Shown: positions 42,941 through 53,637 of the stretch, piece by piece | Layout: each line of letters begins with the position of its first letter | How positions within the stretch are numbered: the first letter of the stretch is position 1 | NCBI GenBank assembly: GCA_029261715.1 | Contig: JAJDAT010000016.1 | Coordinates: 124,001-188,000 of the forward strand | Direction of reading: 5' to 3' | DNA: 64,000 bases | From: Nitrospinia bacterium | Lineage (GTDB): Bacteria > Nitrospinota > Nitrospinia > Nitrospinales > JAJDAT01 | Position numbers and translations under genes: made by a program | The notes under the pieces: model-generated | Told to the model about the DNA's origin: nothing | What the model saw: only the letters and a program-made list of their open reading frames with translations | Database searches by the model: none

Positions 42941-44755
42941 TTGAAGAATTTTTTTCTACTCAGTTCTCTTTTTATATTTGGAATCTTGGTAACAGCAGAG
43001 GGATACTTCCGTTTTTTTTCACCGCAGCCAATTTTTGAAAATCACACGACAGCTAACTTTGGAACTCCAAATTCATTTCGTCCAAAATTAAAAAGAAATT
43101 TTGATTTTGTGGGTTTTCCTTTCGAGGTTAAAACTGATTCCAAAAGTTTGCGAAGTTTCAGCGAAACTCCTTATAAAAAACAAAAAAATGTTTTTAGAGT
43201 TTTATGTATTGGAGGATCTATCTTTGCGGCATCTGGCGTAAACAACAACGAAACATTCGCTTATTACTTGAACAAGAAACTAAATACAAAAGCATCAGGA
43301 ACTAACTTTGAAGCGATAAACGCCGGGAAAAACACATGGGAACTTGCAGATTTTTTCACCTACTTTAAAAACGAGGGATATAAATATCAACCAGATTTGA
43401 TTATCATTTATTTCCATACTGGCGAATTAATGGGAATGGACTTTTCTGAGTTAGAAGCCGATAAGTTGACGCTAAAAAGACTGTCCAAAAATCAGGTCGA
43501 AATTACAATCGGTGGGTTGAATTTTAACGAAAGATTAAACCCAACAGCCGCAGCAGCATTAAACTTTATCCAAAGTATTCCCCTTTACGATTTCTTTTTT
43601 TTCAATTCACATTTAACAAGAATTCTAGAAAAACAAATTAGGGAACGCTTAATTTTTCCAGTGGAACCTTCTCAAAAATCTAAGAAACTCAACTTGAAAT
43701 CCTTTATGGAAAATTGGGATTTAAAACCCGGGGATTTAGTTACTTGGAAAACGGACTATGGAAAAACTACAAATCTAACTTTTTACCAATCCAAAGCAGC
43801 GATATATAATATAGCGTTAGCGCGTTTCATGGAGCTAACGGAAAAATCTAAAACAAAAGTTTTGTTTTTATCCGTTCCATCCCCAAAAGAAATATTAGGA
43901 CTTGAAGTCAACTTCTCGGAAACTAAACCATTTCAAACAACAAAAAATCCTAATTTATATTGGTTAGAATTACTTCAACCTCTGACAGAAATTCAGAACT
44001 CAAGTATGGTTCCGCTCAATTTCCCTAATAAAATTCACTGGACCCCAGCTGGACACAACGCGACGGCGACTATCGTTTCTAATTTCATGACTGCAGAAAA
44101 ACTCCTGCCTTTAAATCCAGCTTCATCCAATATTCAAACCAAGACCGAAGCTTTTTCTCAATCTCTGCGTCAATCCAACAATCGAATTTCCGACTTATTA
44201 AAGAACCAAGGTTATGACTTATATATAAAAGGCATGGTCAATAAAAATTTGGGACGATTAAATCAGGCAGAATCTTTTTTAACTCGTTATTTAAAAATTT
44301 CTCCACAAACTCAAAAACCCATGTGGCATTTAGGAAATTTATATTTTTTAAAAAAAGAGTTTAAAAAATCGATTAAGTTTACGACTTTGGCTGTTGAAAA
44401 TGGTTATATAAAAACTGACGCAGTATACGCATTACTGGGTAAATCCTATTTCAATCTTCAACAATATGATAAAGCTGAAGATTTTTTTAAAAAAGCTCTG
44501 GAGTATTCTCCAAACTATTTTCGAAATCGTTTAAATTTCGCTCGGTTACTGTTTTCTAAAAAACGCTATGAGGAATGCTTGGAGCAGCTATTGACTGCAA
44601 ACACATTATTCCCAAACCAAATAGAAACGCTGATGGGAATTACAAGCGTTTATTTAAAATTGGGACAAAAGCAAAAAGCAAAAGAAGCTTTGCAAAACAT
44701 TTTAAAATTCGCCCCTCAAAACCAAGCTGCGACACACGCTCTTAAAGAAATGTAA
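42941..44755 (+). CDS. Membrane-anchored SGNH-like protein with C-terminal TPRs
   Basis: 604 residues. Anchor at residues 3-25; SGNH-like domain with LCIGGSIFAASGV (GGS at 91-93) and NKIHWTPAGHNATA near 365, where the DxxH aspartate is replaced by Asn. Residues ~420-600 hold four to five TPR units (YDKAEDFFKKALEYSPNY and others). The start is a TTG at 42941. It combines a hydrolase-like head and an interaction tail, and may organise glycan-modifying partners encoded around it. Confidence 0.65.
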   Translation: MKNFFLLSSLFIFGILVTAEGYFRFFSPQPIFENHTTANFGTPNSFRPKLKRNFDFVGFPFEVKTDSKSLRSFSETPYKKQKNVFRVLCIGGSIFAASGVNNNETFAYYLNKKLNTKASGTNFEAINAGKNTWELADFFTYFKNEGYKYQPDLIIIYFHTGELMGMDFSELEADKLTLKRLSKNQVEITIGGLNFNERLNPTAAAALNFIQSIPLYDFFFFNSHLTRILEKQIRERLIFPVEPSQKSKKLNLKSFMENWDLKPGDLVTWKTDYGKTTNLTFYQSKAAIYNIALARFMELTEKSKTKVLFLSVPSPKEILGLEVNFSETKPFQTTKNPNLYWLELLQPLTEIQNSSMVPLNFPNKIHWTPAGHNATATIVSNFMTAEKLLPLNPASSNIQTKTEAFSQSLRQSNNRISDLLKNQGYDLYIKGMVNKNLGRLNQAESFLTRYLKISPQTQKPMWHLGNLYFLKKEFKKSIKFTTLAVENGYIKTDAVYALLGKSYFNLQQYDKAEDFFKKALEYSPNYFRNRLNFARLLFSKKRYEECLEQLLTANTLFPNQIETLMGITSVYLKLGQKQKAKEALQNILKFAPQNQAATHALKEM

Positions 44756-46639: not shown

Positions 46640-49600
46640 ATGTCTCGTCGCGCCGTCATTTTATTAGTTTTTGTCATTGTAGTCTGTTTAAGTTTCTGGC
46701 TCATCTCTCGCTACCCAGCCCTGGGAGGCAAAGCCGCCATGTCCGGAATGGAAGCATTTGACGATCCGTTGACCCATAACGCACACTTTACGCTTCCTCC
46801 AGGATCCCCAACCTACAAACGAATTCTTTATTCCACCCTTAATTGGTACGAAACTAATTGGCGTGGAATGTTTTTTGGGCTTGTTTTAGCTGGAGGCTTT
46901 CTAGCATTACTCAATCACTTACCCAAACGCCCATCCTCAAAACCATTCGTAAATAGTTTTTTTGGTATGTTAACTGGCACTCCACTCGGAGTTTGCGTGA
47001 ATTGCGTAGCTCCTATTGCTAAAGGTATTTATGAAGCTGGCAGTAAAATGGAAACCGCATTGGCTGTTATGTTCAGCTCTCCAACTCTCAACGTGGTTGT
47101 TTTAACCATGTTGTTTTCTATTTTTCCATTTTACATGGCTATTGCGAAATTAGCCTCGACCTTTTTTCTGATACTCGTCGTGATCCCTTTAATTTCTAAA
47201 AACAAAACGATTACAGGGATTTCTGAAAAAAACCAATTAGAAAACACAATTTGCGAGCTTCTTCCCGAAGATGAAAGTTGGTTGGAAGCTCTCAAGGGAA
47301 CTATTCACGATTACTGGAAGAGCTTTAGTTATATTTTTATCAAAACGGCTCCCTTGATGCTATTGGCCGGATTTTTGGGAGCTACATTTAGCCAGTTATC
47401 CGATTTTGACCGGTTAATCGGACTCGATCCAAATTGGAGAAACTTAGCGGCTCTCTCGCTGATGGGAACATTTCTCCCCCTTCCCATCGCCTTCGATCTA
47501 ATGCTAGCTCAGGCTATGATGATCTCTGGTCTTTCTCCTGGCTTAGTCATGGTCATGTTATTTACTTTGGGAACTTTTAGCGTCTACTCCGCCATGATTG
47601 TTTACCAAACGTTTTCCTTTAGGCTCGCCGCTGGACTTTTTTTAATCGTTGCCGCAATTGGAGCTGCTAACGGACTGCTAGTGCATCAATACTCCGAACA
47701 CAAGTTTTTAAGTTGGCTGGAGTCTTACAATAAAATTGTTGTCGCAGAAGAACCTAAAATTACGAATAAAAATACTTTTACAGCGCCAACTCCGCAAGAA
47801 TTTTTAATAAGCCAAACTGAAAGTCGCTCCTTCAATCCTATTTGGGAAAATAATCAGGTATTAATATCCTCTATTTCCCATACTCCAAAATCGCAAGATG
47901 GCTCAAAACCCTTCTCAACTATCTTAGGGCCAACTTTGGGTATCGGATACTCTAATAAACTAACCCCTAACACATTTTTCGATCCTTTATTTTATGGTAG
48001 AGGTATCGCTTCCGGAGATTTTGATAAAGACGGTTGGATTGACTTAGTAACTGCCACAAACAACGGATTTGAACTCTATCAAAATCTCAATGGTAAGAGA
48101 TTTCAAAAAATTCCTCTTCCAATAAATAATTTATCAGGAAAACAATCTATCACAGTCGCCATGGCAGACTTTGATAATGACGGTTGGTTGGATATTTTCT
48201 TTACAACCCTTGGAGATGGAAATCATATTTGGTTAAACCCATTGAGCTCTGGGAAAACTTCTCCTCTCATTCCAGTTCCTAATGGTAACGCGTTTTTAAC
48301 AAGCGCCACAGCCTTCTCTGATTTAAACAACGACAAATTTTTGGACATTGTAAACGGTAATTATTTTTTGGGAACGTTAACAAAAGAACCAGTTGATGCC
48401 GCAGTTGATCAACTAATTATCAATAACAATTTAAAATTCGATCAAGTCCCACTCAAAGGCATCCCAGGACAAACGCACTCAGTTTTATTTGCCGATTTTG
48501 ACAACAACGGAAAAACTGATTTGGCTATTGGAAATGACTATCGAGTAGCAGACGCTTATTATTTAGGCAAGGGAAATGGGAATTTTGAGAAAATTAAAAA
48601 CAGTCAAGGAATCATACCCAAAACTCCCCAAAATACTATGAGTATCGACTCTGGAGATTTCGATAATAATCTTATTCCAGATCTTTATATGGCAAATATT
48701 GGATTATCAAAAGGAACTGCGGTGGTCGCAAATGTTTTTGGTAAAAAAATGAAAGAAGCTGGCGAGACCTTTTGTTTATCTGGAAAGAGTGTTCTCACAA
48801 CAAAAGAATGTCAAAAACAAAACCGGATGACAACGCTTCTTAATCCGGAGAAAAAAGATTCTTCCGAACGATGCTTAAAGTTAGACTCGAAATCCGAAAT
48901 CCGACAATGCATGGCAATGCGGCTAGCGCTAATGGCAATAAAACGTAAAGACAAAAGTCTATGCGCAAAAATCGTCGAAGATTTGCCTTTAATTCAAAAT
49001 TTATGCGAAAAATACTTTCAATCTAAATTTGTCAAGGCCAAGTTCGACGAGGAAATTCCAATGAAAACACATATGAATATTTTACTTCAAGGCGAGAAAT
49101 CTGGAGTTTTTACCGATATTTCAGACACAACAAATATTGCTCCAGGTGAATGGAGCTGGAACGCCAAATTCGCCGATTTAGATAATGACGAGTGGCAAGA
49201 CCTATACATAGTTAATGGAGTGCCTATAACGCAAGATTTCACACCCAACGTTTTCTTTCACAATCAGAAAGGAAAAACATTTTCTTCAGCCGCTAAAAAA
49301 TTCGGATTGGATGACTTCGACCATAGCTCGTCATACACCTACATAGATATCGACCGAGATGGAGATTTGGATATCATCGCAAATACGCTTTACGGACCAT
49401 TTAAAGTTTATTGGAACAACCTAATTAACCAGAACGGAATCTCGTTTAAGTTACGAGATGACATCGCAAACCGATTTTGTATTGGCTGCAAGATAACCAT
49501 TTATTATGGCGATGAGAAAAAACAATTTAGGGAAATCAAGGCCGGAGGAGGGTTTCATTCATTTGACGCCCCAGAAGCTTATTTTGGGCTAGCGTCACAT

Positions 49601-49708
49601 AAACAAATAGCTCGTTTGGATATCAGATGGTCAAATGGAGAAATTAACCAAATCAATCAACCTCTTACCGCTAATTATGAATATCAGATTACCAGGAAAA
49701 ACAAATAA
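46640..49708 (+). CDS. Fusion: ArsP-type permease, FG-GAP repeats and ASPIC/UnbV domain
   Basis: 1022 residues. Residues 1-370 match the ArsP_1/DUF318 permease fold, with GTPLGVCVNCVAPIAKGIYE (cysteine pair in the membrane core) and a second set of helices. Residues ~430-900 hold at least seven FG-GAP/VCBS calcium-type repeats (for example DFDNDGWLDIFF and DLDNDEWQDLY). Residues ~690-770 insert a cysteine-rich helical segment with about seven Cys. The last ~70 residues are an ASPIC/UnbV domain (ending RLDIRWSNG). Such a permease-propeller fusion is unusual. It may export a metal/metalloid or a thiol-bound ion with a periplasmic sensor-like cap. Confidence 0.85.
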   Translation: MSRRAVILLVFVIVVCLSFWLISRYPALGGKAAMSGMEAFDDPLTHNAHFTLPPGSPTYKRILYSTLNWYETNWRGMFFGLVLAGGFLALLNHLPKRPSSKPFVNSFFGMLTGTPLGVCVNCVAPIAKGIYEAGSKMETALAVMFSSPTLNVVVLTMLFSIFPFYMAIAKLASTFFLILVVIPLISKNKTITGISEKNQLENTICELLPEDESWLEALKGTIHDYWKSFSYIFIKTAPLMLLAGFLGATFSQLSDFDRLIGLDPNWRNLAALSLMGTFLPLPIAFDLMLAQAMMISGLSPGLVMVMLFTLGTFSVYSAMIVYQTFSFRLAAGLFLIVAAIGAANGLLVHQYSEHKFLSWLESYNKIVVAEEPKITNKNTFTAPTPQEFLISQTESRSFNPIWENNQVLISSISHTPKSQDGSKPFSTILGPTLGIGYSNKLTPNTFFDPLFYGRGIASGDFDKDGWIDLVTATNNGFELYQNLNGKRFQKIPLPINNLSGKQSITVAMADFDNDGWLDIFFTTLGDGNHIWLNPLSSGKTSPLIPVPNGNAFLTSATAFSDLNNDKFLDIVNGNYFLGTLTKEPVDAAVDQLIINNNLKFDQVPLKGIPGQTHSVLFADFDNNGKTDLAIGNDYRVADAYYLGKGNGNFEKIKNSQGIIPKTPQNTMSIDSGDFDNNLIPDLYMANIGLSKGTAVVANVFGKKMKEAGETFCLSGKSVLTTKECQKQNRMTTLLNPEKKDSSERCLKLDSKSEIRQCMAMRLALMAIKRKDKSLCAKIVEDLPLIQNLCEKYFQSKFVKAKFDEEIPMKTHMNILLQGEKSGVFTDISDTTNIAPGEWSWNAKFADLDNDEWQDLYIVNGVPITQDFTPNVFFHNQKGKTFSSAAKKFGLDDFDHSSSYTYIDIDRDGDLDIIANTLYGPFKVYWNNLINQNGISFKLRDDIANRFCIGCKITIYYGDEKKQFREIKAGGGFHSFDAPEAYFGLASHKQIARLDIRWSNGEINQINQPLTANYEYQITRKNK

Positions 49709-49788: not shown

Positions 49789-50403
49789 ATGCCTCGACTA
49801 TTAGCGAACCGAATCCTTACCATTCTTTGTTTTACCGGGTTAATTGGACTTTTATTATCCCCATCTCAATCCAACGCTAAATCCTCTGTTGCTGTTTCTT
49901 CAAACAATCAAGACTATGGATTTTGTTACGACATAAAAGACCAAGCCACAGCGGAAAAATGCGCCATGCATTATTGCACTGAAGCCAGCGATAATTGTAA
50001 AACAGTCGTATCTTGTAAAGGTTCCGGTTTTGGGGCTGTTTTCCAAAATTACACTGCAGAACCCGGAAAAGGCACTGCTATCAGCCCTAAAAGCTCTGTT
50101 ACTGTCGCCGTCTGCGACAAAAAAACAACCACCAGCGCCAGAGATGCAGCGGAAATAGCTTGCAAAAAAGCAAGTAAAGAAAAGAATCCAACGTTGGGCC
50201 TGGTTTATTGTTATGAAAAAGCATTCTGGTACGATACTGTCGAGATGGAATCCAAAGCGGCGACAAAAGCTCCTGAAAATAAGTGGTGCGATTACGCTAC
50301 AGAATTGTCAGGAATTGCTTCTTTTGAAGATTGTTTAAAATCGTTACGATTCCCAAATCCGAAAAAAGACTGCAAACAAAAAGCAAAAGTTTGGTGCGAT
50401 TAA
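49789..50403 (+). CDS. Secreted cysteine-rich DUF4189-like protein
   Basis: 204 residues. Signal peptide ends near SNAKSS. The mature part contains about 12 cysteines, with YGFCYDIKDQATAEKCAMHYC at its start, resembling DUF4189 repeats (Cys pairs around C...C.AV). It follows the permease fusion by 80 bases and its cysteine pattern might bind metal or thiols in the periplasm. Function unknown. Family assignment is moderate. Confidence 0.6.
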   Translation: MPRLLANRILTILCFTGLIGLLLSPSQSNAKSSVAVSSNNQDYGFCYDIKDQATAEKCAMHYCTEASDNCKTVVSCKGSGFGAVFQNYTAEPGKGTAISPKSSVTVAVCDKKTTTSARDAAEIACKKASKEKNPTLGLVYCYEKAFWYDTVEMESKAATKAPENKWCDYATELSGIASFEDCLKSLRFPNPKKDCKQKAKVWCD

Positions 50404-50535: not shown

Positions 50536-51521
50536 GTGCAAAAAAAAATTACAAAAGTAATTTACATTCTGACCGCTAATTTAATTGTCCTGATAATTCT
50601 TGGCTTAATCGTCGAAATTGGCGGACAAATTTACGCCTATTTTAATCCTGCATATAAAATTCTTCCATTTAAACCTCACCCCACTTTAGGCTGGAGATTT
50701 ATACCAAATTCCGAGCATATTACAACTGGTAATCATTGGTATGCCCGCGAATTCAGTTCTAAAACAAAAATAAATTCTATGGGGTTTAGAGACAAGGAAA
50801 GGACTTTTGAAAACCGTAAAAATACTTTGAGAATCGCTTTATTGGGAAACTCAATGATCGCAGGCCGCCAATTAGACTTTGAAAAAACGGCAGGCCAATT
50901 ATTAGAAAAAAAATTAAATCAAGAGTTAAAAGAAAAAACGGGCAAATCTTTTGAAGTTTTAAACTTCGGAGTGCCTGGTTATGGAATTGATCAATTTCTT
51001 TTAAACTGGAATAGCTTTACTTCTAAGTTTAACCCCGATTTCGTTTTTATTTATATCTTTGAAAAAAATTTCTTTCGAACAATTTCTCCCAGTTGTCCAC
51101 CCTTTATAAAAAACTTATCAGGCAATTCCGAAACCACGAAAAAGACGAAAAAACTTGGAAACATATAAAATATGAAGGAGATTCCAAACACTTTCCTTCT
51201 TGGGAAACTAATAACTTAGTAAATTTAAAATTACTTAGCAAATTGGGTAAATTAGTTAATAAAAATAAAAGCGATTTCATTATTATTGATTCGTTTAAAT
51301 TTCATAACGATTTTAGTCCTCCTATCGACTTTGCTTCTAACTGGCTTAAAAATCTTAGTGATTATTCTAAATTTGGATACATCCCTTTATACAACCCGCT
51401 TAATGAAGCCAAAAACCGTGGAATACCTATGGTGTGGAAATATGATGCTCACTTAAATGAACACGGAAATGAAATATTCGCAAATTCTATGTTTAAATAT
51501 TTGAAAAATAAATTGACCTAA
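50536..51521 (+). pseudogene. Broken SGNH-like protein (internal deletion and frameshift)
   Basis: Frame one (50536-51168) gives an anchor, ALLGNSMIAGRQLDFEKTAG and NFFRTIS, then runs into unrelated residues and stops. Frame two (from 51093) continues with KHFPSWETNNLVNLKLL and YDAHLNEHGNEIFA. Both halves match the intact paralog at 61140 in order, but ~120-140 residues between RTIS and KHFPSW are missing and the frame changes at 51084-51100. Block I also has GNS where the paralog has GDS. The gene is inactivated. Confidence 0.8.
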
Positions 51522-51764: not shown

Positions 51765-51858
51765 CTCCAAACCTGCCGCAAAAACGTTTTGGAATCATCA
51801 ATTCGGCATGCCAAGTGTGGAACACAGACTAATAACGCTTTCAAACTTGTTTTTTAAA

Positions 51859-53637
51859 ATGAGAAAAATTCCTAAAACCTTTTTCAAACTATCCGCTTCG
51901 CTTTTTCTCGTTTTTTTTATCATTGAATTATTGGAAGTCTACTTATGGAATGATAAAAATTCCATCCACAATTCACATGGGTTTCGGGACAAAGAGTACT
52001 CATATAAAAAGCCAGAAAATATTTTCAGAATTTTAGTCTTGGGAGATTCTCAAACATTAGGACAAGGAATTAAACGCCTCGAAGATACATGGCATAAAAA
52101 GCTAGAAGTTTTGATGAATGGAGGTTTCAATCATCCAAAGTTTGAAGTAATCAGTTTGTCAGGCGGAGGTTGGAATACAGACACTCAACTTTACGAGTTA
52201 TTTAAAAGAGGCTTTAAGTATAATCCCAATTTAATTATTATTGGTTTTAATCATAATGACGTTCCTGTCCCTCATGCCTCTAAATGCAAAAATCGAGAAA
52301 TTAAATTCTTTCCAGACTTAAAAGTTATTAGCTGGTTTAGAAAAAATTCAAAAGTTTACCAATTGATTGAATTCCGACTAAATCGTCTATTAGAAACTCT
52401 TGAGCAAAAACCTGGATATGCTGATTGCATTAATCGGCGCTTTGAATCCCGTGGATGGCATATGGAAGAAGTTTATTTAGATACTATTCTTATGTCGGCA
52501 CAAATAAAGAATATCCCACTCATGTTAACAACGCTACCGTTGCTACATAAGCTTGGAGACGATTATCCCTTAAAAAAAGCTGATCTTAAGATTCAAAAAT
52601 ATTGCACGGATAGAGCAATAACATATTTGGACTTATTCACTGAAGGATTCAAAGGATTAAACTCCACCCCGCTAAGAGTTTCAATTACAGATCGACATTT
52701 AAATGAAGTAGGCACCGAAGTTGTTTCTCAAACTCTATTTAAAAAACTGAAGGCATTAAAAACATATAAATACTTACCAAAATTTAGCGGCGCTTTTGAT
52801 TTTAAAGACCTTCTAGATCAAAAAAAGATAGTTGTGGAATTAGATAAAAAGTTTTCAGAATTAATAAATCAAAACAGTAATGTTGTAATAAACTTTCAAG
52901 ACGAACAACTAAAAGTAATAAAACACCTTAGAACACTTGAATATGTCAATACCCTCGGCAATCAAATTGACCAAAAAATCATTAAAGTAAATTTAGATTT
53001 AGATGGAAACTTTAGAAAAAGTGAAATTGTCACTCATAAAAAAAACGCCCCCAATCTTTATTTCCAAAACAATAAATATCAAAATGGAACACACTATCTG
53101 GCGCGAGGAATAAAAACACAACAAGGAAATATTTTAAAAAAAACCGAAAAGTTGTTTTTAGGAAATCACATCTCAACAGGATCCACTTCAAAAATCAAAC
53201 TTTTTCCTAATCTCGAATTTATGGACCCCAAAAGTTTAGAAGTTGCCTTTTCTGAAGAAGAAAAACCAAAGTCACAACTCTCAAACTTAGAAACTTTTGA
53301 AACAATATCTAAATTCATTAAATTAAATCCAAATTTATTTTTCGATTTTAGAAACAAAGGATATATTTTAAAAAACAAATTCGACAAATTGCCCCGATTG
53401 GAAAAAATCCTAATCTATAAAGAAATGGAATGGACAAAATATCTTTTTACTCTAGCTAAACTAGGACATAGTAGATATATAGATTCGCTGATAAAAGATA
53501 TTTTAAAATATAATCCAGTACCTGTTTTGCTACGATCTATAGAACGCTATTATTTTCTAAACAAAAAATTCAAAGAATTAGACCAACTTTATCAATCAAA
53601 TCCAACTATGCCTAACAGGTTTCAGATTCATAATTAA
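51859..53637 (+). CDS. Membrane-anchored SGNH-hydrolase-like protein, long form
   Basis: 592 residues from ATG 51859 (a longer frame from 51808 is possible; neither has a good ribosome site). Anchor in residues 8-27; block I LGDSQTLGQGI; SLSGGGWNTD and GFNHNDV for the Gly and Asn blocks; DRHLNEVGTEVVSQ giving the catalytic Asp-x-His. All four SGNH blocks look intact. The C-terminal ~270 residues are an AT-rich, lysine-rich region without a known domain. An esterase or acyltransferase-like role on an envelope glycan is plausible. Confidence 0.75.
   Translation: MRKIPKTFFKLSASLFLVFFIIELLEVYLWNDKNSIHNSHGFRDKEYSYKKPENIFRILVLGDSQTLGQGIKRLEDTWHKKLEVLMNGGFNHPKFEVISLSGGGWNTDTQLYELFKRGFKYNPNLIIIGFNHNDVPVPHASKCKNREIKFFPDLKVISWFRKNSKVYQLIEFRLNRLLETLEQKPGYADCINRRFESRGWHMEEVYLDTILMSAQIKNIPLMLTTLPLLHKLGDDYPLKKADLKIQKYCTDRAITYLDLFTEGFKGLNSTPLRVSITDRHLNEVGTEVVSQTLFKKLKALKTYKYLPKFSGAFDFKDLLDQKKIVVELDKKFSELINQNSNVVINFQDEQLKVIKHLRTLEYVNTLGNQIDQKIIKVNLDLDGNFRKSEIVTHKKNAPNLYFQNNKYQNGTHYLARGIKTQQGNILKKTEKLFLGNHISTGSTSKIKLFPNLEFMDPKSLEVAFSEEEKPKSQLSNLETFETISKFIKLNPNLFFDFRNKGYILKNKFDKLPRLEKILIYKEMEWTKYLFTLAKLGHSRYIDSLIKDILKYNPVPVLLRSIERYYFLNKKFKELDQLYQSNPTMPNRFQIHN

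Follow-up and report, generated by a model that had tools for sequence, protein, structure and literature searches.

Does a single open reading frame in a Nitrospinia genome join a membrane transporter to a β-propeller, and if so, what could such a chain move? The frame lies at 46640..49708 (+ strand) of the window, the whole 64,000-nt stretch of DNA that we analysed. The initial annotation read it as an ArsP-type permease followed by FG-GAP repeats, a Cys-rich insert and an ASPIC/UnbV domain, and knew of no described system with this layout. Our literature search agrees, having found nothing on a fusion of UnbV, FG-GAP and permease domains; the joining of an ArsP_1-type permease to a predicted periplasmic propeller, a layout conserved across phyla, is apparently undescribed.

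A permease, a propeller and a UnbV domain share one chain

The frame runs uninterrupted for 1022 aa from an ATG start, with zero internal stops. Pfam places ArsP_1 (PF03773) at residues 100-349 (52.1 bits, cut-off 32.3), FG-GAP_3 over 5 stretches of the 1022-aa chain (126 bits) and UnbV_ASPIC (PF07593) at residues 948-1010 (45 bits, cut-off 23.4), each above its curated cut-off, which confirms that permease, propeller and UnbV domain occupy one 1022-residue chain. AlphaFold2 (AF2) modelling of the full chain (34-sequence input; mean pLDDT 85, pTM 0.78) upholds the same layout.

All features lie on the + strand. The permease has nine transmembrane (TM) helices in the AF2 model. TM1 (residues 3-32, 46646..46735) is delimited by its AF2 helix and loop charge and holds the near-invariant residues of FWxxSRYPxLxxK, while the core, TM2-TM9 (residues 58-368, 46811..47743), is supported by the Pfam match and the model. 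A variable linker of low pLDDT (residues 369-398, 47744..47833) leads into part one of the propeller (residues 399-689, 47834..48706), a helical insert (residues 690-812, 48707..49075), part two of the propeller (residues 813-930, 49076..49429) and the ASPIC/UnbV domain (residues ~931-1020, 49430..49699), the last delimited by Pfam, AF2 and a fold match.

The fusion recurs across phyla

We surveyed relatives and found that the fusion recurs across several phyla. Homologues over most or all of its length occur in 31 of 63 genomes of the same order (Nitrospinota/Nitrospinaceae), with full-length identities of 55-57% within Nitrospinota and ~24-48% in other phyla. Counting the genomes that served as starting points, the fusion is present in 8 of 321 sampled gammaproteobacterial genomes (one of the eight, G120, carrying a second fusion type, and one further match, G389, being unfused), in 2 of 240 alphaproteobacterial genomes and in 5 of the 241 genomes that made up the Bdellovibrionota sample, which also yielded one separate-gene form. 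One MAG labelled 'Flavobacteriales' carries the fusion and may be mis-binned, since none of the others among 198 genomes of that phylum does. The permease domain also lies under an FG-GAP-annotated gene on eight closed Roseobacter plasmids from isolates; seven of the eight copies were examined, and one consists of three annotated pieces. Their sole annotation, 'FG-GAP-like repeat-containing protein', hides the permease-propeller architecture. A search for viral or phage homologues of the fusion found none.

Because the layout is conserved over its full length across Nitrospinota and other phyla, the fusion is neither a chance arrangement nor a mis-joined frame. The initial annotation had considered that an assembly error might have joined two genes; the full-length homologues have the identical join, which rules this out. 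Some MAG copies contain internal stops, and in G031 a single contig (C1:835395-836012) holds what appear to be decayed remnants of the fusion gene, the matching frames being interrupted by stops. The two-gene appearance of the G018/L143 copy was set aside as no clear case of natural fission; one frame crosses unknown bases there, which points to a contig gap.

The permease half carries an invariant CxNC motif

In the AF2 models, the permease consists of TM1 and two four-TM halves, TM2-5 and TM6-9, whose helices break at matching places. The broken helices TM3, TM4, TM7 and TM8 bear the invariant columns: C119-V-N121-C122 sits at the break in TM3 (46994..47005), S147, P148 and N151 in TM4, D286 in TM7 and S314 in TM8. 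We propose that C119, N121 and C122, with these residues of the other three helices, form a candidate site for a thiophilic ion.

The N-terminal part might have lacked the ArsP fold altogether, yet both the HMM match and profile-profile comparison assign it to ArsP_1 (hhalign against three ordinary ArsP_1 permeases: 99.2%, E 7e-20). No solved structure matched the permease half significantly by sequence or fold. All 32 members of the permease subfamily that we examined carry the motif G[VIL]CxNC, with CxNC in place of the CSC or CTCC of ordinary ArsP_1 members. The Cys positions overlap in the alignment, the CTCC of YraQ-like members occupying the place of CxNC. In a tree of the 32 members and three outgroups, the subfamily splits from the outgroups with support 100/99, with long outgroup branches and a poorly resolved deep part. 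By sequence, the CxNC permeases form one subfamily. The fusion lies outside two equivalog families as scored by NCBIfam models, reaching 45 bits against SaoE (NF040736; cut-off 325) and 25 bits against SO_0444 (NF033936; cut-off 300). The label 'ArsP-type' stands at the broad level of PF03773 only, and there is no sign of arsenic; hints of a substrate come from copper genes, beside unfused relatives only.

The N-terminus carries positive charge, as does the TM2/TM3 loop. Together with nine TM helices, this would place the propeller, by parity, on the periplasmic side, a location that its paired Cys also favour, and we predict a cytoplasmic N-terminus.

The propeller is split by a six-Cys insert

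Seven DxDxDG-type motifs, with conserved Asp columns on AF2 strands, start at D460, D510, D561, D619 and D673 in part one and at D846 and D903 in part two. Judged by these motifs, the propeller probably binds calcium, in line with the calcium-like ion that had been suggested for it. The insert, helical in the AF2 model, separates the fifth from the sixth motif and contains C712, C724, C745, C757, C775 and C789 as three C-x(11-13)-C pairs. An insert of ~7 Cys had been annotated; the insert is there, with six conserved Cys. The same six, at spacings of ~12, 18-24, 12, 18 and 14, recur in 26 of the 30 fused chains that we examined. In five other members (L045, L046, L138, L139 and L160), the linkers carry 6-26 Cys, an even number every time, and the even counts in insert and long linkers would fit disulfides. 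These long linkers (in L045, residues 345-817) are built of C-x(~11)-C repeats that resemble the propeller insert.

The best solved match of the propeller half is CRTAC1 (9etn; sequence E 1.9e-24, fold E 1.8e-18). CRTAC1-like FG-GAP/UnbV proteins range from bacteria to humans, and to our knowledge they have no clear bacterial role.

Permease and propeller were probably joined more than once

In the propeller tree, a branch supported at 100/99.9 sets the main fused clade apart. The L136 fusion has a CRTAC1-like propeller that lacks the six-Cys pattern and groups with standalone proteins, and a single clade of all fusions received an AU p of 0.034 when tested against its position. On this sequence evidence, L136 is probably a second, independent fusion. 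At L141, a UnbV propeller, an SCO1 protein (PF02630, E 3e-31) and the permease are encoded by separate, closely spaced genes. From the L136 fusion and the L141 operon, we conclude that the two modules were probably joined more than once, and both cases indicate a functional coupling of permease and propeller. A search for further unfused members in ~1,300 genomes returned L135 and the separate-gene L141 only. In two unrelated lineages, standalone FG-GAP/UnbV proteins directly adjoin the fusion (L044, 12963-15311; L047, 3864-6071).

Gene neighbourhoods give sparse hints of the cargo

The one relative that is clearly standalone, L135, has a gene for MbnP (TIGR04052, 258 bits, cut-off 140) on one side and a gene for MbnH (TIGR04039, 494 bits, cut-off 362.85) on the other. 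A gene for a two-haem cytochrome c lies upstream of the fusion and overlaps it in L140/L159. Another PF03773-type permease, SO_0444, is required by cells growing under stress from Cu or Zn (PMC3219624), and a member of its family in Nitratiruptor is induced by Cu and Cd and adjoins a cytochrome c gene (PMC10092412). The MbnP family is today named copper-binding by NCBIfam, while a 2013 survey of MbnP/MbnH noted that no data then tied close MbnP homologues to copper (PMC3621798). We favour Cu(I) or another thiophilic ion because of MbnP/MbnH at L135, SCO1 at L141, cytochrome c at L140/L159 and the SO_0444 precedent, each of these copper links being one single case or a distant relative and the MbnP/MbnH and SCO1 neighbours being one case each.

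Copper or redox neighbours occur in only a few of ~28 lineages; for the most part, the fused gene is solitary or set among unrelated genes. Nitrospinota have no conserved operon around the fusion; their recurring neighbours, identified by eye as CrcB-like and glutaminyl-tRNA-synthetase-like, belong to one branch only. In the window, the fusion is surrounded by genes for SGNH hydrolases, a TPR protein and a glycosyltransferase, which are uninformative about metals. An SGNH/GDSL-type hydrolase (LA_2490-like; 50536-51521, +) is present as two ORFs, 50536-51168 and 51093-51521, and appears frameshifted or mis-sequenced because these overlap in different frames; the proteins at 42941-44755 and 51808-53637 also contain related SGNH-like stretches.

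The secreted 12-Cys protein that had been noted after the fusion is indeed encoded there (49789-50403, +), with a weak DUF4189 match. Its proposed membership of the system does not hold. Among 100 genomes searched, homologues of this protein occur in the window's own genome only, where one paralogue (38% identity) lies elsewhere; 0/99 relatives have one. In the survey for linkage, the protein never adjoined the fusion in the relatives examined, and we rejected it as a system member.

Rhodobacterales present a different setting. At eight loci (L154, L156, L157, L158, L161, L137, L152 and L155), often on plasmids, the fusion follows Sel1-repeat proteins, a small secreted protein of no assigned family (present at seven of the eight) and an S74/tail-fibre-like protein, in that order, and is itself followed by giant Ig-like or tail-collar proteins. 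Sulfotransferase genes occur near L130, L131, L154, L155 and L156 (a raw occurrence). At L131 (4857-17266), the fusion lies between a preceding NRPS gene and a sulfotransferase gene, another large related protein comes next, and the locus is possibly inside a natural-product cluster.

A proposed exporter and its alternatives

Transport, its direction and calcium binding are all predictions from sequence and structural models. We consider it fairly likely that the protein is an exporter whose periplasmic propeller acts in transport. In the fuller reading that we prefer, at somewhat under even confidence, the protein exports a thiophilic ion, Cu(I) being the likeliest, and a tethered calcium-binding propeller in the periplasm receives the cargo or gates its exit; Cu(I) itself as the cargo is a tentative assignment. 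In such a mechanism, an inner-membrane exporter would have its own periplasmic partner built into the chain. The CxNC site would bind the ion, which would then be moved outward in the way suggested for SO_0444, a related Cu/Zn permease. Stiffened by calcium and disulfides, the propeller would sit over the exit and accept or hand over the cargo, or gate the exit. In unfused relatives, SCO1 or MbnP/MbnH from separate genes could serve as the acceptor. Several observations weigh against this reading: copper or redox neighbours are few, the genes around the fusion in the window carry no metal signal, the Rhodobacterales copies lie in a conserved surface-protein cluster, and ordinary ArsP_1 permeases have Cys motifs unlike CxNC.

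That conserved Rhodobacterales run, together with the sulfotransferase genes, the NRPS gene before the L131 fusion and the SGNH hydrolases and glycosyltransferase close by in the window, would instead fit cell-surface building, in which the permease transports a small molecule, such as a sulfur compound, that is required for modifying extracellular proteins or glycans while the propeller docks secreted partners. We regard this as unlikely: the neighbours are clade-specific and absent from the Nitrospinota and Bdellovibrionota copies examined, and the invariant Cys-bearing membrane site suggests a thiophilic cargo. The same surface clusters, and the fact that integrin-like FG-GAP propellers often bind partners, are also consistent with a loss of transport that left the permease as a membrane anchor or sensor for a propeller working in adhesion or as a scaffold. 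Invariant residues would not be expected to gather at the helix breaks of an anchor, however, and the standalone L135 permease retains them; we consider such a loss improbable.

The cargo could alternatively be reduced sulfur or a thiol (thiosulfate, sulfide, persulfide or a cysteine-like compound) rather than a metal. Of the ordinary permeases compared, its nearest kin are YraQ-like, with CTCC in the same place, and one YraQ-like permease adjoins a YeeE/YedE family gene; yet we saw no sulfur-uptake gene beside the scanned CxNC members, and L135 lies within an MbnP/MbnH pair, so we consider a sulfur cargo improbable. Export of organoarsenicals, as by ArsP with an accessory domain, draws on the Pfam family that ArsP and the fusion have in common. 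With no ars gene among the scanned neighbours and the SaoE and SO_0444 scores far under their cut-offs, we give it very little credence.

Comparison with known systems

A bolder proposition, which we think unlikely, is an as yet undescribed exporter class in which a calcium-stabilised periplasmic propeller with a disulfide-bonded helical insert is fixed covalently over an ArsP-type exit and passes the ion straight to an acceptor; one chain would then do the work that falls elsewhere to separate SCO1 or MbnP/MbnH-type partners. The ArsP_1 permeases, for the most part named just 'permease', gain an architecture with a predicted periplasmic domain, and the permease link, seemingly arisen more than once, hints that at least one CRTAC1-like branch works in transmembrane export. 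Cultured, plasmid-bearing Roseobacters open the fusion to genetics; cultured carriers include Tropicibacter oceani (WP_282302541.1), Tateyamaria omphalii (WP_076630843.1) and Phaeobacter sp. G2.

Among known permeases, the fusion is most like the YraQ-like branch of ArsP_1 (PF03773, TC 2.A.119), sharing two four-TM halves with an extra N-terminal TM, a Cys motif in the first half and the high-scoring profile match (99.2%); the 1+4+4 arrangement is a known variant among ArsP_1 permeases (PMC7176098). Ordinary ArsP_1 members have CTCC or CSC, whereas the fusion has CxNC, D286 in its second half and a C-terminal propeller with Cys insert and UnbV domain. The SO_0444 family Cu/Zn efflux transporters and SaoE match it weakly yet significantly. 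The MbnP/MbnH copper-protein pair is connected to the subfamily through L135, where a standalone permease lies between both genes; unlike in L135, neither gene was seen near the window gene or any fused homologue. CRTAC1 and bacterial ASPIC-UnbV proteins have the same FG-GAP propeller followed by UnbV, but those compared are without a permease, and the six-Cys insert pattern marks the main fused clade apart from them.
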